Shown here: one piece after another, positions 2,383-36,217 of the stretch
How positions within the stretch are numbered: position 1 is the stretch's first letter
How the letters are laid out: each line of letters begins with the position of its first letter
Origin: Aeromicrobium sp.
GTDB lineage: Bacteria; Actinomycetota; Actinomycetes; Propionibacteriales; Nocardioidaceae
Direction of reading: 5' to 3'
Length of the DNA: 36,217 nucleotides
Assembly: GCA_025965175.1 (NCBI GenBank)
Contig: JAOPXL010000033.1
Span: 1-36,217, forward strand
The notes under the pieces: generated by a model
Databases searched by the model: none
Seen by the model: only the letters and a program-made list of their open reading frames with translations
What the model was told of the DNA's origin: nothing
Program-made: the position numbers and the translations under genes

Positions 2383-4608
2383 GTGCTGCGTCACCACAGT
2401 CTGCTCCGCGTCGCGCCGGACGATCGCGATGTCACCGTCGGTGTCGGTGCGCCACCACGTCGCACCCTGCCGGCGCAGGAGGGACAGCGCCGCCGCGGCG
2501 GGATGCCCGTAGTCGTTGCCCTCCCCCGCGCTGATCGTCACGATCCGCGCCCCGACTGCGGCGAAGAGCGCCGGCAGCTGCCTGGCGCTGCCATGGTGGG
2601 GCATCTTCAGGACGTCTGCGGCCAGGTCGGGATGCTCCCGGAGCAGGACCCGTTGTGCGGGGGGCTCGATGTCCCCCGTCAGCAGGAGGCGGATGCCACC
2701 CGCCTGGACCCGCAGCACGACGCTGGCGTCGTTCATCGCCGAGCCCTCGCCGGTCGTCGAGGGCTGGTCCGGGAGCGGCCACAGGACCTCGGCGGTGACC
2801 TCCCCGACGGTGAACGTCTCGCCCGGCGACACGACGTGCACCGGGACCCCGCGTGCGGAGGGACCGCCGGTCGGTCCCACCGCGACCTGGTCCACCCGGC
2901 GCCCGTCCTGCACCCCCGGCCAACCGTCGACGTGGTCCGCGTGCGCGTGGGTGAAGACCATGAGCCGCACCCGGCTGACCCCCAGCCGGTCGAGGCATCG
3001 GTCGACCGCCGGCGGGTCCGGCCCCGCGTCGACGACCACGGCGCTGCCCGGCCCGGCCGCCAGCACCGTGGCGTCCCCCTGGCCGACGTCGCAGGCCACC
3101 ATGACCCAGCCCTCGGGCGGCCAGCCGGTCTGCGGCGGCCGCCACACCCCGATCAGCAGTCCCAGGGACAGCCCGAGGAACAGCGCCGGGCGCGTCGAGA
3201 CGACTGCGATCACGACGATGACGACCGGAACGACCAGGAGCAGCAGCTGCCAGGGGGCGTGCCACTCCAGCGAGGCGGACTCGAGCCCGGCCGCATGGTG
3301 CCCCACTGCCAGGATCCAGCTCGCGCCCGCACCGGCCACGACCCCGGCGACCTGCGCCAGCGGGACGGACACCAGGGCGACCAGGCCACCCAGGAGGCCG
3401 GCGATCGTCGCCGGCGCCACGGCAGGCCCGGCGAGGAGGTTGGCGAAGACCGCCACGAGCGACACCTCCCCCGACAGTGCCGCGATGGCCGGGGTGCACG
3501 CGAGCTGGGCCGCCAGCGGCACCGCGACGCTCAGGGCGCACCAGCGCGGCATCCACCGCTCCAGCCGACCCGCCAGGGCCGGCGCCAGCAGCAGGATCCC
3601 GGCCGTCGCCAGGGTCGACAGGATGAATCCGGCAGAGCGGGACAGCCAGGGGTCGAGGAACACCAGCCCGATCACCGCCCAGCAGAGGGCCCGCACCCCG
3701 CCCCGGGACCCCAGACCCAGGGCGGCGATCCCGACCGCGCCCATCGCCGCAGCGCGGACGACGCTCGGGTCGGGGCGGGCCAGCAGCACGAAGGCCACGA
3801 TCGAGCAGGATCCGACGACCCACAGCCCGCGTTGACGGAGGCCGGCCCCCCTGGCCAGGAGCATCACGACCGCAAGCACGATCGTGAGATTGGTCCCGGA
3901 GACTGCCATGAGGTGCGTCAGGCCCGCTCGTCGGAAGTCCTCGTCGACCCCGTCGGGGATCCGGGTGTCGTCCCCGTCGACCAGCGCCGGGACGAGCGCG
4001 CGGGGCTCGGCGGACAGATGGGTGACGGAGCCCCGTACGCCCTCACGCACGCGCTCGGAGGCCTCCCACCACCACGCCGCGCGGTCGGCGGGTCCACGAC
4101 GACTCACGTTGACGACGGCAACCTCCTCCGTGGCGTCGGACGGGGCCAGCCGTCCACTCATGACGAGGCGACGGCCCACGACCAGGTCGTCGGCCTTCCC
4201 GTCGAGGAACGCCGTCGCCCGGTCCCTGACCCGGACGTCCCGGTCGCGGGAGACCGCCCGACGGACCATGACCTCGACGACGACCGACTCGCGACCGTGG
4301 ACCGTGTATGTCCGGGCGTCCCGCAGCACCTCGATGTCGAGCACGACCCGCGCGTGCTCCGCGGCCAGCTCCCGGACCGGGGAGTGTTCGACCGTGGTGA
4401 GGCGCCACGCGCAGGACGCCGCGACGACGGCCACGCACACCGCCGCGAGGGCCACGACACGGGCCCGACCCAGCCGCAGCAGCACCGCCGCGAGAGCCAC
4501 GGCCATCACGGTCACGGCCAGCGCCACCAGCGACCGGGACGTCACGAGCACCGCAGCACCGGCCCAGCAGGCCAGCGCCGCCGGGGCCGTCCTCAGGTCG
4601 TGGCTCAC
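2380..4608 (-). CDS. comEC: ComEC/Rec2-family DNA uptake channel
   Basis: The 742-residue protein has several N-terminal hydrophobic helices, a soluble segment, the central Competence domain (DEDFRRAGLTHLMAVSGTN followed by many membrane helices), and a C-terminal metallo-beta-lactamase-like domain with FTHAHADHVDGW (HxHxDH) and MPHHGS. ComEC is the inner-membrane channel through which single-stranded DNA enters during transformation; the lactamase-fold domain is thought to degrade the non-transported strand. The SGTNL and HxHxDH motifs are intact, so the gene looks functional. The GTG start shares a GTGA overlap with the comEA stop (4605-4608), indicating translational coupling. I infer DNA uptake capacity or a vestige of it; no pilus genes are in the window. 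Confidence 0.93.
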   Translation of the reverse strand: MSHDLRTAPAALACWAGAAVLVTSRSLVALAVTVMAVALAAVLLRLGRARVVALAAVCVAVVAASCAWRLTTVEHSPVRELAAEHARVVLDIEVLRDARTYTVHGRESVVVEVMVRRAVSRDRDVRVRDRATAFLDGKADDLVVGRRLVMSGRLAPSDATEEVAVVNVSRRGPADRAAWWWEASERVREGVRGSVTHLSAEPRALVPALVDGDDTRIPDGVDEDFRRAGLTHLMAVSGTNLTIVLAVVMLLARGAGLRQRGLWVVGSCSIVAFVLLARPDPSVVRAAAMGAVGIAALGLGSRGGVRALCWAVIGLVFLDPWLSRSAGFILSTLATAGILLLAPALAGRLERWMPRWCALSVAVPLAAQLACTPAIAALSGEVSLVAVFANLLAGPAVAPATIAGLLGGLVALVSVPLAQVAGVVAGAGASWILAVGHHAAGLESASLEWHAPWQLLLLVVPVVIVVIAVVSTRPALFLGLSLGLLIGVWRPPQTGWPPEGWVMVACDVGQGDATVLAAGPGSAVVVDAGPDPPAVDRCLDRLGVSRVRLMVFTHAHADHVDGWPGVQDGRRVDQVAVGPTGGPSARGVPVHVVSPGETFTVGEVTAEVLWPLPDQPSTTGEGSAMNDASVVLRVQAGGIRLLLTGDIEPPAQRVLLREHPDLAADVLKMPHHGSARQLPALFAAVGARIVTISAGEGNDYGHPAAAALSLLRRQGATWWRTDTDGDIAIVRRDAEQTVVTQH

Positions 4609-5364: not shown

Positions 5365-5441
5365 GGCGGGACCGGCCCGGTCCTGAACCGGTCGGCCGGG
5401 GCATGTGGACAACCCGCAGGCGTCGCCTGGCTGTGGAGGAC

Positions 5442-6287
5442 CTAGCGCGGGGTGATCGTCACCGAGATCATCCCGGGGCCGACATGGGCGCCGATCGCGG
5501 CGCCCACCTCGTCGACGGGGATGGTCTCGACCCCGAGCGTCGTGGCGAGGTGCCCCGCGACGCTCGTCGCGCTTGACAGCCCGGCGAGGTGCTGGACGCC
5601 GATGTCGAAGCCGTCGGCGCAGGCCGTCGCCGCCTCGACCGCGAGCGCCTCGACCCGGGCCAGCGCCTTGGCCTGCGTCCGGACCCGTTCGAGCGGGACG
5701 ACGAGTCCGTCGGTGATCGTGAGGATCGGCTTGACTGCGAGCGCCGATCCGATCAGGGCCGCCGCGGCACCCACCCGTCCGCCACGCTTGAGGTACTCGA
5801 GCGTGTCGACGTACAGCAGGACCGTCGAGGACTCCCCCGCCCGGCGGGCAGCCTCGGCGACATCGGCGGCGTCCGCACCGGCGTCACGCGCCTGCGCCGC
5901 CCGTCCCGCGGCGAAGCCGGTCGCCACGCCGACCTGGGTCGAGTCGATGCAGGTGACCGGCACGGGCGACTGCTTCGCGGCGAGAACGGCCGAGTCGAGC
6001 GTCCCGGACATCCGGCGGCTGAGGTGGACCGACACGATCGCGTCGGCTCCCTCGTCCGCGAGACGCCGGTAGACCGCGAGGAAGTCGTCGGGGGTCGGTC
6101 GGGACGTGCTGACCGGCACGAACGAGGCGAGCGCCTCGGCGAGCATGTCCGCCGTGACGTCGACGCCCTCGATGTGGACGTCGGCGCCGATGATGACCTG
6201 CAACGGCACCACCGCGATGCCCTCACGGACGGCGTCCTCCGGTGACAGCGAGGACGTCGAGTCCGTGACGATCGCGATGTGAGGCAT
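5442..6287 (-). CDS. DegV family fatty-acid-binding protein
   Basis: The 281-residue protein starts MPHIAIVTDSTSSLS, the DegV N-terminal signature, and has the HLSRRMSGTLDSA motif and the LKRGGRVGAAAALIGSALAVKPIL segment shared by the family. DegV (FakB-type) proteins bind a fatty acid; in firmicutes they present it to the kinase FakA for phosphorylation. No FakA-like DhaK/DhaL kinase gene lies in the window, so the partner is unknown. Length and domain order are normal. The ATG (6285-6287) lies 7 nt after TAGCAT without a Shine-Dalgarno sequence, so it is probably leaderless and transcribed separately from leuS. Confidence 0.93.
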   Translation of the reverse strand: MPHIAIVTDSTSSLSPEDAVREGIAVVPLQVIIGADVHIEGVDVTADMLAEALASFVPVSTSRPTPDDFLAVYRRLADEGADAIVSVHLSRRMSGTLDSAVLAAKQSPVPVTCIDSTQVGVATGFAAGRAAQARDAGADAADVAEAARRAGESSTVLLYVDTLEYLKRGGRVGAAAALIGSALAVKPILTITDGLVVPLERVRTQAKALARVEALAVEAATACADGFDIGVQHLAGLSSATSVAGHLATTLGVETIPVDEVGAAIGAHVGPGMISVTITPR

Positions 6288-26752: not shown

Positions 26753-27862
26753 TCACCGTCGCGAGGCGCCGGCCCGGACCCGGTCGACGACGGCCCACAG
26801 CGTCCGGTCCAGCACGGCCGCCGACAGGTCCTGCATGTCGTACCAGCGCAGGACCAGCCAGTCACCGACCGGCGCGGCGGTGGCCCGCAGCCACTCGTCG
26901 AGGCGTTCGTAGGTCTCCCCCGAGACGAACAGACCGGTCAGGGCGATGAACGCCAGCGAGCTCCATGGCAGGGCGAGCAGCACGGCCAGCACGATGTTGA
27001 CCGCGATCGTCAGGAACAGCACGATCCTGCGGGTGATCGGGTTGAGCAGCAGCGGACCGAAGAACAGCTGGGTCAGCAGCACGACGTACGTCAGGAGCGC
27101 CAGCACGACCGAGCTGCTGGACACCGCGTCCGACAGCCCCGGATAGGGCCGGAACTCGGGCAGCTGCATCGTGGAGTAGAGCGCGGTCCCCCGCTGCCAG
27201 ACACCCTGCGAGACCTTGTCGAGGCCGCCGGCGGTGAACAGCAGGATGGTCTGCGTGATCAGGCCGATCAGTCCCACGTGGTGCAGTCCCGCCGACAGCC
27301 AGGGTGGGAAGACGCGCTCGCCGTCCCACGCCTGACGCATCGCGCTGACTGATCCGTCCGTGGCCGCAACCCGACGCTCACGGCGGCGCGCGTCGAGCGA
27401 CCAGAAGTCGGCCGTCTGCATCAGCAGCAGCCACAGCAGGGTGATGCGCAGCAGGTTGTCGCCTTCATCGCCGACGACGGGGTTCTGCGCGACGATCGCG
27501 ATGAAGCCGACCAGGGTCACGATGTTGGCGGCCTTGGTGTGCCAGCCGAGCGCCATGGCGAGCGCGGCCGCGATCGTGACGGCGTAGAAAGCCGTCAGGA
27601 TGTCGCCGCTGACGCCGTCGAGCAGGGCGAGCTCGGGGAACTGGCTCAGCTCGCGGACAGGCTGCGCCCAGATCGAGGCCTGCCCAACCCACACGTCGCG
27701 GCTGGAGAAGTTCGCGACGAGCAGCCCGAGCACCGACAACGCCGTGCCGATGCGGCACAGCGCGGCGCCGTGGATCGCGCGCGGCTCCGCCAGCAGCCAC
27801 TCCTCCGCCGCGACGACCCACCGCCGGGGCGCTTCGATCAGTCGATGTCCGAGCTCGATCAC
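26753..27862 (-). CDS. HTTM domain membrane protein, SdpB-like (copy 1)
   Basis: The 369-residue polytopic protein has about six to eight hydrophobic helices. It has HTTM features: ALCRIGTALSVLGLLVANF near the N-terminus, VGQASIWAQPVRELSQFP, GDEGDNLLRITLLWLLLMQTADFWSLDARRR, TAGGLDKVSQGVWQRGTALYSTMQLPEF, and late helices with TYVVLLTQLFFGPLLL. HTTM proteins are homologous to vitamin K-dependent gamma-carboxylase and include SdpB, required with SdpA for maturation of the Bacillus SdpC toxin. The GTG start is 4 bp after the stop of the DUF5819 gene, so the two are a coupled pair. A matching pair lies at 30185-31857. Confidence 0.85.
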   Translation of the reverse strand: MIELGHRLIEAPRRWVVAAEEWLLAEPRAIHGAALCRIGTALSVLGLLVANFSSRDVWVGQASIWAQPVRELSQFPELALLDGVSGDILTAFYAVTIAAALAMALGWHTKAANIVTLVGFIAIVAQNPVVGDEGDNLLRITLLWLLLMQTADFWSLDARRRERRVAATDGSVSAMRQAWDGERVFPPWLSAGLHHVGLIGLITQTILLFTAGGLDKVSQGVWQRGTALYSTMQLPEFRPYPGLSDAVSSSSVVLALLTYVVLLTQLFFGPLLLNPITRRIVLFLTIAVNIVLAVLLALPWSSLAFIALTGLFVSGETYERLDEWLRATAAPVGDWLVLRWYDMQDLSAAVLDRTLWAVVDRVRAGASRR

Positions 27863-27866
27863 TCGC

Positions 27867-28622
27867 TCAGTCCTTCACATAGTCGTCGAATGCGGACTGC
27901 GCCTCGAAGGACGCCCGGTAGCCGAGGCGGTAGCCGAAGGTGAACCATCGGAAGTCCTTGTCGCGCAGCGAGCTCGTCGCCACCTCGGAGACCGGGGGCA
28001 CGGTGCGCCGACCGACCCGGTACTGCACCGCGATGACACGCCCCTCGACGCGCGCCTGAGCGTACATCGAGGCGAACCTCGTCGCCATCAGGTCATACGT
28101 CATGTAGGTCTCGACCGCGGCACGCCGGTCCGCGCCCGCGGCGAGCAGCCGACCGCGCAGCAGCGTGGTCGGGTCCTTGGTGTAGGTCTCGCGCACCAGC
28201 GCGCGCTGCTTGGCGTTGAGCCCGAACATCGCGCCGTTGAGGTTGGTCGCGAGCTTGCGGGCCATCAGGTGCGTGCGGGCGGGATCAAGGTCGTGGCGGA
28301 GAGCATCGTTCTCGGCCGCCGTGATGTCGACCCACGCGGTCACCCGGTTCTTTCCCGCGTCGTCGTCCCTGACCTGCGCCCGGACGAGGAACGACTCGTC
28401 CACGAACTGCGCATTGGGGGCCAGTCCGCTCCACGACTGCTCGAAGTAGGGGTTGACGTAGGTCGCCAGGGCGCGACCACCGATGACCTGGCGCACCGGG
28501 CTCTGCGGCGACAGCCAGAACGCCAGGACCACCGAGTGTCCGACCGCGAGGACCGCGAGGGCCACGACGATGCGCCGCTGCCACGGCCGGGGAGCAGGCA
28601 TGTCCGTGCTCGTCACCGACAT
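27867..28622 (-). CDS. DUF5819 family protein, SdpA-like (copy 1)
   Basis: From ATG 28620-28622 the protein is 251 residues. It has one N-terminal membrane helix (about residues 15-37, RRIVVALAVLAVGHSVVLAFWLSP) and an extracytoplasmic domain with YVNPYFEQSWSGLAPNAQ, VTAWVDITAAENDALRHDLDP and VQYRVGRRTVPP. The 'Y..P.F.Q.W...AP' and 'T.W.D.T..E' patterns are shared with the second copy at 31111-31857 and fit DUF5819, the SdpA-like family found next to HTTM genes. The start was placed by TAGGAT-7 nt-ATG; the ORF-track start at 28691 would run through a terminator hairpin. It is coupled to the HTTM gene downstream. Confidence 0.83.
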   Translation of the reverse strand: MSVTSTDMPAPRPWQRRIVVALAVLAVGHSVVLAFWLSPQSPVRQVIGGRALATYVNPYFEQSWSGLAPNAQFVDESFLVRAQVRDDDAGKNRVTAWVDITAAENDALRHDLDPARTHLMARKLATNLNGAMFGLNAKQRALVRETYTKDPTTLLRGRLLAAGADRRAAVETYMTYDLMATRFASMYAQARVEGRVIAVQYRVGRRTVPPVSEVATSSLRDKDFRWFTFGYRLGYRASFEAQSAFDDYVKD

Positions 28623-28629
28623 GGCCTCC

Positions 28630-28635
28630 ATCCTA
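28630..28635 (-). promoter_or_regulatory. Candidate leaderless -10 of the DUF5819/HTTM pair, copy 1
   Basis: TAGGAT on the minus strand, then 7 nt (GGAGGCC), then ATG 28622. The GGAGG lies too close (2 nt) to the ATG to be a good ribosome-binding site. Confidence 0.5.
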
Positions 28636-28646
28636 GGTGTGTTCGT

Positions 28647-28702
28647 TTCCCGGGTCCGGGAACGCCGCTGCCGGTGACCTGGTCGGGTCACCGGCAGCGG
28701 CG
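28647..28702 (-). terminator. Two consecutive hairpins downstream of the LPXTG gene
   Basis: A perfect 17-bp stem (core CCGCTGCCGGTGACC / GGTCACCGGCAGCGG, 28663-28679 and 28686-28702) with a 6-nt loop begins 16 nt after the LPXTG stop. A second stem, TTCCCGG / CCGGGAA (28647-28653 and 28656-28662), follows immediately. There is no long T run, so this is a hairpin-only or tandem terminator separating the LPXTG unit from the next gene pair. Confidence 0.8.
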
Positions 28703-28718: not shown

Positions 28719-30029
28719 TCAGGATGCGAGCATCTGGCGACGCTTCTCGTTGAGGAGAACGCCTCCACCGAACAGCACCAGGGCCAGGCCCAGGAACAGG
28801 AACGGCAGCAGGTTGCTCGGCGCACCCGTGTCGGGCAGCGCCTGCGTCACGTCGGCGTCAGCCTGCGCGTCGGCGTCAGCAGCAGCGTCGGCGTTGGCAT
28901 CGGCGTCGGCCGCCGCGTCAGCGTTGGCATCCGCGTTCGTGTCGGTGTCCGCGTCGGCCGCCGCGTCGGCGTTGGCGTCGGCAGCAGCGTTGGCGTCGGC
29001 GTCGTCACTAGCGACCACACCGTTCGGGCCACACGCGGAACGTGCCAGTGCCAGGGTCGCGGTCTCGCCGACCACGTTGAGGTCCAGTGCGGTGACCTCG
29101 ACCGAACCATCGGCGTTGGTGACCTGCTTGTTGACCGTGCCGTCCAGGACAGGCACGAGCGCGTCGCCAACCTGGTCCAGGACCGGTCCGAGCTGCGCGA
29201 GAACGCCGTCGACCAGTGTCTGCTGCAGGGTGGGCACCAGGTCTGCGAGTCCGCCGAGGGCGCCGCCCAGGCTGTCGTTCAGCGTGTCCTCGACACCCGT
29301 CAGCAGACCGGTGACGATCTGCTTGGGAGCGACGGAGCCGACCAGCTTCGCGTTCGCGGAGGTGTTCAAGTTCACCGGGACGGTGATGACGTTGCCCGGC
29401 GCGAGCTCGACCAGGAGGTCGATAGCGCCAATCTTCGAGCTCATCGTGCCGTCGCTGTTGCACTCGCTGCTGACAGCACCGATCCGCGCCGAGACCGGCA
29501 CGGCGGCCTGGACCGCGGCGAGCAGCGGCGAGAGGGCCGCGTCCTGGATGCCCGACAGCAGCGGGGTCAGGAGTGCCTCGAAGGCGGGACGAAGAACCAG
29601 CGGCTCGAGCCCGGCGACCACCTTGTCGAGGATGGTGCCGGTGTTGATCGCGCTGATCTCGTCGCCGACGTTCGACACGTCGATCGTCGTGAGGGCCATG
29701 TTCGTGCTCTCAACGCTCGCGCTCGCCTCAGAGGTGCCCTTCGTGCCGTCCAGACCCGTCGACGCGGTCTGGTTGATCAGACCGACGGCCGGTCCGGAGA
29801 CGCTCAGGCCGGTGCCACACGTGCCCGAGCCCGGGGTGGCGGGACCTGTGGACTCGGCGCGGCACTCGTCACTGTCGACGATGCCGGTCAGTCCCGACGC
29901 CGTGACGGCGCTGGAGTTGGACTGCGCGACGATCGCGTCGGCACCGTTGGCGGAGAACGACAGGCCAGCAGTGACGATCAACGTCGCCATTCCTACCGCT
30001 AGTGAGTTTTTGGCAAGCTTGTTCTTCAC
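28719..30029 (-). CDS. Secreted LPXTG-anchored wall protein with Ala-X dipeptide linker
   Basis: The 436-residue precursor has a signal peptide (about 1-31, KNKLAKNSLAVGMATLIVTAG then SANGADA), an exported domain (about 32-341) rich in Ser, Thr, Val and Ala, and a 50-residue linker (344-393). The C-terminal sorting signal is LPDTG (398-402), a hydrophobic stretch and KRRQ. Four cysteines (DECRAES, GTCGTG, SECNSDG, SACGPNG) could form two disulfides. The exported domain contains repeated 'LDxVxxxLxPLL'-like amphipathic stretches but no family I recognise with certainty. Sortase would link it to peptidoglycan; no sortase gene is in the window. The GTG start has AGGAG 8 nt upstream. It stands alone between two DUF5819/HTTM pairs and has its own structured leader and terminator. 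Confidence 0.88.
   Translation of the reverse strand: MKNKLAKNSLAVGMATLIVTAGLSFSANGADAIVAQSNSSAVTASGLTGIVDSDECRAESTGPATPGSGTCGTGLSVSGPAVGLINQTASTGLDGTKGTSEASASVESTNMALTTIDVSNVGDEISAINTGTILDKVVAGLEPLVLRPAFEALLTPLLSGIQDAALSPLLAAVQAAVPVSARIGAVSSECNSDGTMSSKIGAIDLLVELAPGNVITVPVNLNTSANAKLVGSVAPKQIVTGLLTGVEDTLNDSLGGALGGLADLVPTLQQTLVDGVLAQLGPVLDQVGDALVPVLDGTVNKQVTNADGSVEVTALDLNVVGETATLALARSACGPNGVVASDDADANAAADANADAAADADTDTNADANADAAADADANADAAADADAQADADVTQALPDTGAPSNLLPFLFLGLALVLFGGGVLLNEKRRQMLAS
28851..29000 (-). repeat. Ala-[Asp/Asn/Ala/Gln] dipeptide repeat encoding region
   Basis: Twenty-five dipeptides in a row have Ala (twice Thr) first and Asp, Asn, Ala or Gln second. A longer unit ADANADAAADAD recurs. 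At DNA level this is GTC/GGC-rich imperfect repeat (GCGTCGGC...), prone to length change in multiples of 6 or 36 bp. Confidence 0.9.
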
Positions 30030-30184: not shown

Positions 30185-31114
30185 TTACAGGGTGTCCACC
30201 GTCACGCGACGGCGCGATCTGACCCACGCTTCCGCGCGGAGCCAGGACCGATCGCTCACCAGGATCATGTCGACAGCGATCATGACGAGCGAGAAGTACA
30301 GGATCCCCATGAAGATCCCGATGCCCAGGTGCATCCCGGTGATCAGGATCAGGGCCACGAACCGGCTGGGCCGGTAGAGCAGCAGCAGCGGGAAGAACAG
30401 CTGCACGACGATCGCGGTGTAGGTCGCCCCCGAGATGACAGGACCGAAGGCGTACACGGGCTGCAGCAGGTCGTGCCACGGCGAGTACGCATCGGTCTGC
30501 AGCGGGTAGTAGACCGCCGTGCCGTCCTTCCAGACCGCGCTCTGCAGCTTCCAGAACGCGGAGCCGACGTAGACCATGACGACCTGGTGGATGATCAGGA
30601 CCGTGGCGAGGTTGTGCAGCGTCGACGAGGCCCACTCCGGCACGAGCGGGCGGATCTCGCCGCGCCGCTTCCCCAGACGCGCGTCAACGGACCAGCGGCG
30701 ACCCGAGTCGGTGAAGCACAGGTAGAGCAGCACCATGCGGAGCACCGCGTCGCCGCCCGAGCCGACGAACGGGCTCGAGACGTACAACGACATCCACAGG
30801 AACAGCGTGACCAGCGCCGAGCCACGTGTCCGGTAGCCGATCATCAGCAGCACGCCGAAGACGATCGTGCCGAGGTAGGCGAGATCGAACGCCACTCCCC
30901 CGAGCTGCTCGAACAACCCGAGGAACGACGGCCAGGACTTGGCGTCCCGGACCGGCTGGGTCCACACGGCCCCGTCGCCCCAGGTGTAGTGCCGGTCGAA
31001 CCAGTTGACCAGCAGCTGGCTGGCGACGATGAACCCGAGGATCATCCGCGTGACGGCCAGGCCGTACGTCGAGTGCTTCTCGCGGGTCAGCCAGCCCATC
31101 GCCAGGGCGATCAT
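30185..31114 (-). CDS. HTTM domain membrane protein, SdpB-like (copy 2)
   Basis: The 309-residue polytopic protein shares the plan of copy 1: GLAVTRMILGFIVASQLLVNWF, WGDGAVWTQPVRDAKSWPSF (compare GQASIWAQPVRE in copy 1), GSGGDAVLRMVLLYLCFTDSGRRWSVDAR (compare GDEGDNLLRITLLWLLLMQT), YVGSAFWKLQSAVWKDGTAVYYPLQTD (compare TAGGLDKVSQGVWQRGTALYSTMQL), and VVQLFFPLLLLY. It is about 60 residues shorter, mainly at the ends. The ATG shares an ATGA overlap (31111-31114) with the DUF5819 stop, so the two proteins are made together. Confidence 0.86.
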   Translation of the reverse strand: MIALAMGWLTREKHSTYGLAVTRMILGFIVASQLLVNWFDRHYTWGDGAVWTQPVRDAKSWPSFLGLFEQLGGVAFDLAYLGTIVFGVLLMIGYRTRGSALVTLFLWMSLYVSSPFVGSGGDAVLRMVLLYLCFTDSGRRWSVDARLGKRRGEIRPLVPEWASSTLHNLATVLIIHQVVMVYVGSAFWKLQSAVWKDGTAVYYPLQTDAYSPWHDLLQPVYAFGPVISGATYTAIVVQLFFPLLLLYRPSRFVALILITGMHLGIGIFMGILYFSLVMIAVDMILVSDRSWLRAEAWVRSRRRVTVDTL

Positions 31115-31857
31115 CGGTGCCTCCGGTCGAACGAGGCGACCGTCCGGCGTTCCGCCGCGGTGCCCGGAGTAGGACGGCGCCAGCCGCTGTCGCGCTCGGT
31201 CGCCTCCGGTCGCGAGGCAGCACGCTCGGCGGCGGTCCCCGACCGTGACTCGTACGGCACGACGGGGGCGCTGCGGAGGCGGTAGCGGACGGCAGTGAGC
31301 TCACGGTCGGGCCAGCGGGACAGCAGGACGTCGGTCGCGAGCCGCGCAGTCGCCTGCTCGTAGAGCAGGAACGTGCTGACGCGGCCCGGGCTCGCGCCGC
31401 CGGCCAGCAGGTCGGCCCGCAGCTGCGCCCACCTGGGCGGGCTGTCCTGCGGCGTCTCATCGGCGGTCTCGCGCTCGGCGGTGCCCAGGCCGCGGTACGC
31501 CTGGCCGAGCGGGCCGTACAGCTTGCTGGTCACGTAGCCGGCCCGGCCACCCACCAGACGGTGCTGGACCAGGTCGAGCTCGACCGCGGTCCAGTCGACC
31601 CACGCCGTCGTCTTCACCGAGCCGTCCGCGGCGGTGTAGGTCCCCTGGAACCAAACCTCGCGGTCCTCGGCGACCGGGGACGGCGCGAACAGACGCCAGT
31701 TCTGGGTGAAGTACGGCGCGAGGTAGCTCGTGCGGGGCGCAGCGGCGTCGCTGTAGCGGTTGGGCGGCAGCGCTGCCAGGGTGACTGCGACGAGCTGGAA
31801 ACCGGCCATGATGACGGCCACGGCGATGAACAGCGATCGCAGCGAGACCCGGGGCAC
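31111..31857 (-). CDS. DUF5819 family protein, SdpA-like (copy 2)
   Basis: The 248-residue protein has one N-terminal membrane helix (about residues 8-30, SLFIAVAVIMAGFQLVAVTLA) and an outer domain with SYLAPYFTQNWRLFAPSPVAEDREVWFQG and KTTAWVDWTAVELDLVQH. These align by eye with YVNPYFEQSWSGLAPNAQ and VTAWVDITAAENDALRHD of copy 1. The C-terminal 45 residues are Arg/Glu/Ala-rich and look disordered. The GTG start (31855-31857) follows TACGGT by 6 nt. It is the first gene of the pair and lies downstream of the tRNA-Ala terminator. Confidence 0.83.
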   Translation of the reverse strand: MPRVSLRSLFIAVAVIMAGFQLVAVTLAALPPNRYSDAAAPRTSYLAPYFTQNWRLFAPSPVAEDREVWFQGTYTAADGSVKTTAWVDWTAVELDLVQHRLVGGRAGYVTSKLYGPLGQAYRGLGTAERETADETPQDSPPRWAQLRADLLAGGASPGRVSTFLLYEQATARLATDVLLSRWPDRELTAVRYRLRSAPVVPYESRSGTAAERAASRPEATERDSGWRRPTPGTAAERRTVASFDRRHR

Positions 31858-33872: not shown

Positions 33873-35120
33873 TCAGCGGGTGTGACCGTCACCGGTCACG
33901 ACGTAGGTCGTCGTCGTCATCTCGGTCAGCCCCATGGGGCCACGGGCGTGCAGCTTCTGCGTCGAGATGCCGATCTCGGCGCCGAAACCGAGCTCGCCCC
34001 CGTCGGTGAACCGCGTCGACGCGTTGATCATGACGGCAGCGGAGTCGACCCCCGTCGTGAAGCGGGTCGACGCCGCCAGGGACGACGTCACGATGGCCTC
34101 GGTGTGCCCCGAGGAGTACGTACGGATATGGGCGATCGCCTCGTCGATCGACTCGACCACCCGGGCCGAGATGTCCAGCGAGAGGTACTCCGCGGCGTGG
34201 TCCTGCTCCGTCGCGGGCGTGACGTCGGCGTTGACGGCGCAGAAGGCGGGGTCGCCGTGGACCGTGACCCCGAGGTCCTGCAGGGCCGTCACGACGCGAG
34301 GCACGAACGAGTCGGCCACGGACTTGTGGACCAGCAGCGACTCGGCAGCGTTGCACACGCTGGTGCGGTGGGTCTTGGCGTTGAGGACGATCGCGAGCGC
34401 CATGTCGAGGTCCGCGTCGGCGTCGACGTAGACGTGGCAGTTGCCGACGCCGGTCTCGATGACCGGGACGGTCGACTCCTCGACCACCGCCTTGATCAGG
34501 CCCGCTCCCCCACGCGGGATCACCAGGTCGACCAGACCACGTGCCTGCATCAGGTGGGTCGCAGACGAGCGGTCGTCGGCGGGAATCTGCTGGATCGCAT
34601 CCTTGGGGAGCCCGGACTCCGCGAGCGCGGCACGCATGATGTCGATGATCGCTGTGTTGGACGCCGACGCCGATGACGATCCGCGCAACAGCACCGCGCT
34701 GCCGGCCTTGAGGCAGATCGCCGCCGCATCGGCGGTGACATTGGGGCGGCCCTCGTAGATCATGCCGATGACGCCCATCGGCACGCGGATCTGCTGGAGC
34801 TGCAAGCCGTTGGGGAGGGTCGAGCCGCGTACGACCTCGCCGACCGGATCGGGCAAGGCGGCAATGTCACGCAGCCCGTCGGCGCATGCACGTATGCGCT
34901 GCTCATCGAGGGACAACCGGTCGATGACGTCCTCGCTCGTGCCATCGCCGCAGGCCCGGTCGACATCGATGGCATTGGCCGCGAGAATCTCCGCGGAGCC
35001 GGCCTCGAGAGCGTCAGCCATCGCCTGGAGAGCCGAGTCCTTGATCGCTCGGGTGGTCAGGGCGAGGGTCGCGGCGGCAACCCGGGCACGGCGAGCGGCG
35101 TCGTGGACCAGCTCTTTCAT
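33873..35120 (-). CDS. proA: Gamma-glutamyl phosphate reductase
   Basis: The 415-residue aldehyde-dehydrogenase-fold enzyme reduces gamma-glutamyl phosphate to glutamate semialdehyde in proline synthesis. Visible motifs are [70 protein letters not shown] with the catalytic cysteine, and [28 protein letters not shown] near the C-terminus. The sequence is complete. The ATG (35118-35120) has AAGG about 8 nt upstream in a short leader, with TAGAAT as -10, so it is leadered. proB is not in the window; the gene upstream is the regulator, so the usual proB-obg-proA order may be broken or lie elsewhere. Confidence 0.97.
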
Positions 35121-35161: not shown

Positions 35162-36217
35162 TCAGCTGTCGCTCGACGCGGGCACTCCGCGTACGCACGC
35201 GGCCAACGCCGAGCGGGTCCGCACCTCGAGGCGGTCGAACAGGTCGGCCACATGCTTCTCGACCGTCTTCTCACTGATCGAGAGCGATCGTGAGATCGCA
35301 CTGTTGGAGAGTCCTTGGGCAACGAGGACAGCCACCTCACGTTGGCGAGGTGTGACCTTGGAACCGAACACCGGATCAACCTCATCGCCACCCAGCTCAC
35401 GACCGATGCCGACCCGATTGGTCGTGCCCAGCGCTCCGAGCACAGCGGCGACGTGACTCTCGACGGTCTTTTCCGACACGAACAGGGCGGCGGCGATCTC
35501 ACGATTGCGCAGCCCGGAGGCTGCAAGCCGGGCGATGACCTTCTGGGTCGGGGTCAGCGCATCCCAGCCGTGACCCGGCACATTGCGCAGCCGGCGGCCG
35601 TGAGCCGCGAGCTCACGCTCGGCCCAGTCCCGCACCGCCGAGGCGCCGCCGGAATTGGCACGCCGGGCCGCCTCCTCGAGCTCTTCGATGCCGCGAATCC
35701 GGTCACCTGACCCCGCACGAGCGGATGCCTCGATTATGCGCGCCCGGGTGACCTCGAGATCGCCACCGACCAGGGCGGCCAGGGTGCCGGAATCGGAGGA
35801 TTCGCGTATGCCGGCCGCGTTGTCGCTCTGCGACACCGCGACCCTGGCCCGGATGCGACCCAGAGCGGCCGAGGCCATGTGATGGCGTTCGACCGGCAGG
35901 GATGCCGCTCGTTCGGCCCAGAGCAGCGCCGCCGCACCGTCGCCCCGGGCCAGCGCGTCCTCGACCAGAAGCTCGTAGCCGTAGACCCGGTCGACCAGCT
36001 GGAGGCGCGGCAGATGGTCACCGCCGCCCCCGTGCACGATCAGTTCCGCCGCCTCCGAGAGCCGCCCGATCGCATTCGCACCGAAGGCTGCCAGGACGTA
36101 CGAACCGGCGTAGACGTAGTTGTGCTCGACCGTCTCGGGCACGACCTTGCGGAGGTCGACGAGCCCGCGGGCCACAGCCTCCTCGTCGCCCAGATTGCCG
36201 TCGACGAAGATGCGGGT
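35162..36217 (-). CDS. Transcriptional regulator with two tandem LuxR-type DNA-binding domains (5' end outside window)
   Basis: The frame is open to the window edge (TRIFVDGNLGDEEAV before the first internal GTG), so at least 352 residues are present and the N-terminus is missing. The upstream part is alpha-helical with repeated AAxLLWAERAASL- and ARIIEASARAGSGD-like helices, typical of the TPR-like region of large ATPase (LAL/MalT-type) or response regulators. Two LuxR helix-turn-helix domains follow back to back: LTPTQKVIARLAASGLRNRE with SEKTVESHVAAVL (about 35400-35560), and VTPRQREVAVLVAQGLSNSA with SEKTVEKHVADLF (about 35200-35365). Both keep the LTxxExxVxxxxxxGxxNxxIA-like core and the SxxTVxxHV recognition helix. 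The regulon is unknown. Confidence 0.9.
   Translation of the reverse strand, partial: TRIFVDGNLGDEEAVARGLVDLRKVVPETVEHNYVYAGSYVLAAFGANAIGRLSEAAELIVHGGGGDHLPRLQLVDRVYGYELLVEDALARGDGAAALLWAERAASLPVERHHMASAALGRIRARVAVSQSDNAAGIRESSDSGTLAALVGGDLEVTRARIIEASARAGSGDRIRGIEELEEAARRANSGGASAVRDWAERELAAHGRRLRNVPGHGWDALTPTQKVIARLAASGLRNREIAAALFVSEKTVESHVAAVLGALGTTNRVGIGRELGGDEVDPVFGSKVTPRQREVAVLVAQGLSNSAISRSLSISEKTVEKHVADLFDRLEVRTRSALAACVRGVPASSDS

Follow-up and report, generated by a model that had tools for sequence, protein, structure and literature searches.

The protein encoded at the end of the window (the whole stretch of DNA analysed, 36217 bases, which is the entire contig G000:C173) is best explained, as a whole and with a probability of about 0.5, as a TPR-arm, ATPase-free, LAL-derived regulator that carries a built-in asymmetric pair of HTHs. 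Proteins of the LuxR/GerE type count among the most common regulators of bacteria, and they are treated as having one HTH per chain and as having to dimerise or oligomerise. The tandem-LuxR family to which this protein belongs is real, conserved and apparently undescribed in the open literature searched, which yielded no paper on LuxR/GerE proteins with HTHs in tandem.

The regulator gene is cut by the contig end: its open reading frame (35162-36217, minus strand) remains open up to the last base of the window, with the 5' end lying beyond it, and comprises 351 C-terminal codons and the stop. The source assembly is incomplete (241 contigs, 87.7% complete) and the 5' part of the gene is absent from all its other contigs. 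The fragment consists of the C-terminal part of an all-helical TPR-like putative sensor arm (amino acids 1-205 of the fragment, 35603-36217, supported by the AlphaFold model and an arm profile), a first GerE/LuxR domain, D1 (amino acids 220-275, 35393-35560), a linker of 11 residues of low model confidence (276-286, 35360-35392) and a second GerE/LuxR domain, D2 (287-342, 35192-35359), all on the minus strand. The recognition helices, helical in the AlphaFold model, occupy amino acids 249-263 of D1 (35429-35473, minus strand) and 316-330 of D2 (35228-35272, minus strand). Pfam GerE (PF00196), the profile of the tetrahelical LuxR-type HTH, matches the fragment in two stretches (6.7e-29 and 99.7 bits for the whole protein, against a gathering cut-off of 23.5), and the family-specific profile scores D1 with 85.5 and D2 with 87.4 bits. 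The first-pass annotation of two complete LuxR/GerE domains with a short linker between them has thus been confirmed, and the motifs SEKTVESHV and SEKTVEKHV are present as it had described them. Judged from both domain scores and from the constant spacing in 31 homologues, the tandem pair cannot be due to chance.

AlphaFold models built from a three-sequence alignment (mean pLDDT 71 and 68, pTM 0.45-0.52) have both HTHs formed and the arm all helical; they give no confident arrangement of D1 relative to D2, and the linker in the model of the window's protein has a pLDDT below 50. Foldseek searches with the HTHs returned GerE domains, and those with the full-length relative L047 returned MalT domain III (1hz4; a weak structural match, E 0.013), TPR subunits of APC/C and Rap proteins, all with E 0.01 or worse. 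No chain matching over both domains was found by sequence search of the PDB.

The double-domain architecture is no one-off, since the search for it recovered more than 30 proteins from independent genomes. Relatives in Aeromicrobium and Nocardioides share 75, 71, 67, 51, 42-45 and 33-38% identity with the window's protein, and the intact ones, of about 500-570 residues, carry two GerE domains behind a MalT-like helical-repeat (TPR) arm. Both domains were matched by a profile of the tandem region in at least 28 of the 397 genomes of the order, with one further partial match, these counts being lower bounds from the best 10-15 candidates scored per genome. All but one of the matched genomes belong to Nocardioidaceae, the family of the window's own organism, and a gap in E from 1e-27 to 1e-19 precedes the single-domain matches. 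The same profile at E <= 1e-17, with the same number of candidates scored per genome, matched nothing outside the own genome among 397 phylum-wide genomes, and the plasmid search gave single-domain matches only. The distance between the starts of D1 and D2 is 66-74 residues in 31 of 31 proteins (67-69 in 24 of them); the linker is conserved in length and its sequence diverges fast.

The fixity of the pair has been assessed with the 205-residue arm profile, searched alone across 200 genomes of the family Nocardioidaceae. The strong matches (E 1e-76 to 1e-28) are followed by LAL-sized proteins at 1e-12 to 1e-16, and both GerE domains are found in 29 of the 30 readable strong matches, the exception being L185, whose second domain is interrupted by a frameshift; no single-HTH intermediate occurs among these 30. 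The next matches after the family are single-HTH LAL proteins of 986-1049 amino acids, such as L192 (1049 amino acids, one HTH). Frameshifts are located in the N-terminal part of L038 (about 5440-5600) and inside D2 of L185/L093 (G230), and represent either sequencing errors or real inactivation. In another family of the order, a 327-amino-acid response-regulator-like protein (L158 1395-2375, minus strand, G037) has two GerE domains, one weak and one strong, at a distance of 84 residues, and is perhaps an independent double-HTH protein.

The tandem proteins resemble LAL/MalT regulators in that a TPR-like arm leads directly into a LuxR HTH, whose place is held by D1. The C-terminal half of the arm together with D1 (amino acids 47-278) aligns with a LAL-sized protein of 986 amino acids (G000:C135) at 35% identity; this alignment and the arm profile indicate that the arm is homologous to the LAL arm. 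The family differs from LAL/MalT proteins in having no ATPase domain, about half the LAL length and an extra HTH behind the first: no Pfam ATPase family was matched in the full-length relatives (the N-terminus of the window's protein is missing), and instead of a single C-terminal LuxR HTH all intact relatives have two. Because the first HTH starts about 12-18 residues past the arm in the tandem family and in the LAL-sized group alike, D1 appears to correspond to the LAL HTH and D2 to have been added. With the response regulators of the NarL/FixJ type (NarL, DegU, VraR, LiaR, DosR) the proteins share the GerE fold (roughly 30-42% identity over 51-63 columns in structure searches), but they carry two HTHs and have no receiver domain; neither a receiver domain nor the autoinducer-binding domain of quorum-sensing LuxR proteins gave a Pfam match in the fragment or in the full-length relatives. 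A survey from 2012, covering 991 LuxR proteins of actinobacteria (PMC3466318), includes a TPR+LuxR architecture, which is similar in joining a helical-repeat sensor to LuxR; its architecture list as read has no LuxR+LuxR class, although the method of the survey may have collapsed repeats. The family is best read from its sequences as a group of ATPase-free, LAL-derived regulators with a built-in HTH pair, distinct within Nocardioidaceae.

The near-identical SEKTVE cores had been taken by the first-pass annotation as a sign of internal duplication. The idea that the pair is a recent internal duplication or an assembly artefact with no functional meaning draws on this core being common to both domains of the window's protein, and is very improbable given that the same architecture occurs in more than 30 proteins from independent genomes. 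D1 and D2 of the window's protein are identical at 39% of residues and at 46% of DNA positions, and 16 of the 22 identical residues are encoded by differing codons (a common codon at 6 of 22). Across the family the identity between D1 and D2 is 35.1% within a protein and 35.4% between proteins, against 49% for D1-D1 and 54% for D2-D2. The equal identity within and between proteins, the low DNA identity and the differing codons exclude a recent duplication, and the core itself is restricted to a subclade, so that the claim is unsupported as a recent event. An ancient duplication is compatible with the topology tests, in which D1 and D2 as one clade gave p-AU 0.354 and D2 as one clade was not rejected (p 0.397). 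In the maximum-likelihood tree of 128 domains D1 and D2 fall in separate, mostly coherent groups, its 56 columns being too few to separate an ancient duplication from a fusion.

The core reads EKTVE in both domains of the window's protein, L009, L010 and L038, and ERTVE in L047 and L076. Both domains of three more relatives read VK here, and in the other 22 proteins D1 mostly reads PxTVR and D2 VKxVE. SPxTVR, not SEKTVE, is the D1 core in most of the family. EKTVE is found in none of 51 single-domain controls, a count that leaves out the Chloroflexi controls, which are biased for the frequency of EKTVEKHV because the motif served as a search pattern. At the level of sequence, the common SEKTVE core of the subclade is a real, unexplained resemblance; it may be an old relic or the product of convergence towards a shared half-site. 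In the proBA group residue 30 changes jointly in both domains, being E/E in one subclade and V/V in three relatives. Such a joint change of residue 30 and the core could mean that both domains of the subclade read similar half-sites.

The two domains differ at the residues expected to contact DNA. Positions were taken from DegU and RcsB (PMC9263151, PMC5829831) and transferred to the domain numbering by motif, in a mapping of our own: position 5 corresponds to DegU R168 and RcsB K154, 31 to K194/K180, 34 to K197/S183, 35 to N198/S184, 43 to RcsB K192 and 49 to DegU R212. At positions 5, 31, 34, 35, 43 and 49 the window's D2 has R, K, E, K, R and R, and is thus basic at 5, 31, 35, 43 and 49; R5, K31, K35, R43 and R49 are almost invariant in D2 across the family. 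D1 has T, K, E, S, A and R. The earlier description of both recognition helices as intact therefore holds for D2, which keeps its basic contacts, and has to be qualified for D1, in which T and A replace two of them. Position 43 is K or R in 47 of 50 single-domain controls, where A43 is rare, and R in 30 of 31 D2 domains; it is basic in none of the 31 D1 domains (A in 26). In the proBA subclade A43 is found in 6 of 6 and T5 in 4 of 6 D1 domains, T5 occurring also in 12 of 33 LAL controls, and the D1 recognition helix has a mean net charge of -1.5, where the single-domain controls average +1.1 and +1.9. Because of T5, A43 and the net-negative helix, D1 of this subclade may not bind DNA at all.

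It is rather unlikely, but would agree with these features, that D2 is the sole DNA-binding domain and D1 a structural or dimerisation/regulatory module holding the arm or a second chain. The absence of a basic residue at position 43 from every D1, together with the change of R5 to T and the negative helix in this subclade, points in that direction, as does the finding that R168 of DegU (position 5) gave the strongest loss of DNA binding among three single mutations tested and that K192 of RcsB (position 43) makes an electrostatic contribution (PMC9263151, PMC5829831). However, D1 keeps G16, K31, T32, V33, H36 and R49, its recognition helix is basic (+1.9) elsewhere in the family, and its dimer helix alpha10 has in the window's protein two glycines and R54, which is unlike a better dimer interface. 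D1 is also better conserved than any other segment of the chain: identity with the three closest orthologues is 89, 84 and 79% for D1, 82, 75 and 68% for D2 and 70, 66 and 63% for the arm, and dN/dS of D1 against them is 0.05-0.18 (a rough estimate, dS being large). Both domains are under purifying selection. This conservation and strong selection rule out D1 as a degenerate remnant, a possibility that had been raised at the outset and was not borne out. As the best-conserved segment with a low dN/dS, D1 is maintained, yet its role need not match that of D2.

In the asymmetric pair that we favour, the arm would sense a ligand or a partner protein and control the exposure of the HTHs, and the two domains of a chain, covalently joined and unequal, would cooperate on DNA: the canonical base contacts would come from D2, and the neighbouring half-site would be occupied or clamped, more weakly, by D1. 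The first-pass annotation had suggested that one chain might read two half-sites alone or share out DNA binding and dimerisation between its domains, and either may apply. DNA would then be bound with neither dimerisation nor ATP-driven oligomerisation, and the regulator would act on nearby genes. The stricter proposal is that a single chain binds two half-sites: an obligate, asymmetric pair of HTHs within the molecule would have taken the place of dimerisation and of the ATP-driven oligomerisation of its LAL ancestors, and would have become fixed in one Nocardioidaceae family. It is put forward tentatively, with the balance somewhat against it. The chains might instead form an ordinary dimer that places four HTHs on an extended operator with two D1 and two D2 sites. 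Dimerisation through alpha10 is the rule for canonical GerE domains (PMC9263151) and both domains are under selection, which speaks for such a dimer, but no operator has been found and we regard this arrangement as distinctly unlikely.

The regulator gene lies upstream of proA (gamma-glutamyl phosphate reductase, assigned by sequence, gene order and Pfam Aldedh) on the same strand in seven Aeromicrobium genomes (the window, G025, G008, G198, G004, G033 and G031), and the order obgE-proB-[2xLuxR]-proA-nadD is present in all five Aeromicrobium genomes whose upstream side could be checked. In the window proA (33873-35120, minus strand) begins 41 bp after the regulator stop. A WhiB-like gene stands between the regulator and proA in G004, G033 and G031 (L057 8528-9121; L058 9013-9396; L064 about 3900-4277) and is absent there in the window. 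In 17 congeners proB and proA are adjacent with no regulator gene, and a second syntenic group in Nocardioides (L149-L151, L155, L157) has the gene between M13-peptidase-like and RecQ-helicase-like genes, as identified by eye. The link to proBA is thus lineage-specific, and its position alone is only a hint of proline regulation. 'LuxR2' matches inside proB were discarded as out-of-frame 5' extensions of the stop-to-stop ORF queries. In the Nocardioides group, two tandem-LuxR genes stand side by side in G254, G297 and G215. Elsewhere in the window, a protein predicted to be secreted (28719-30029, minus strand), which has Ala/Asp-rich repeats and, at its C-terminus, an LPDTG-type sorting signal with a membrane helix behind it, is flanked by gene pairs at 26753-28691 and 30185-31857 (both minus strand); the genes at 26753 and 30185, and those at 27867 and 31111, look like paralogues, related loci giving cross-matches at 29-35% identity.

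Whether dimerisation can be built into a chain, and how an HTH changes once no partner is needed, could be put to a natural test in a stable family whose chains each carry two HTHs. The single-HTH LAL proteins that share the arm would provide a clean evolutionary comparison.
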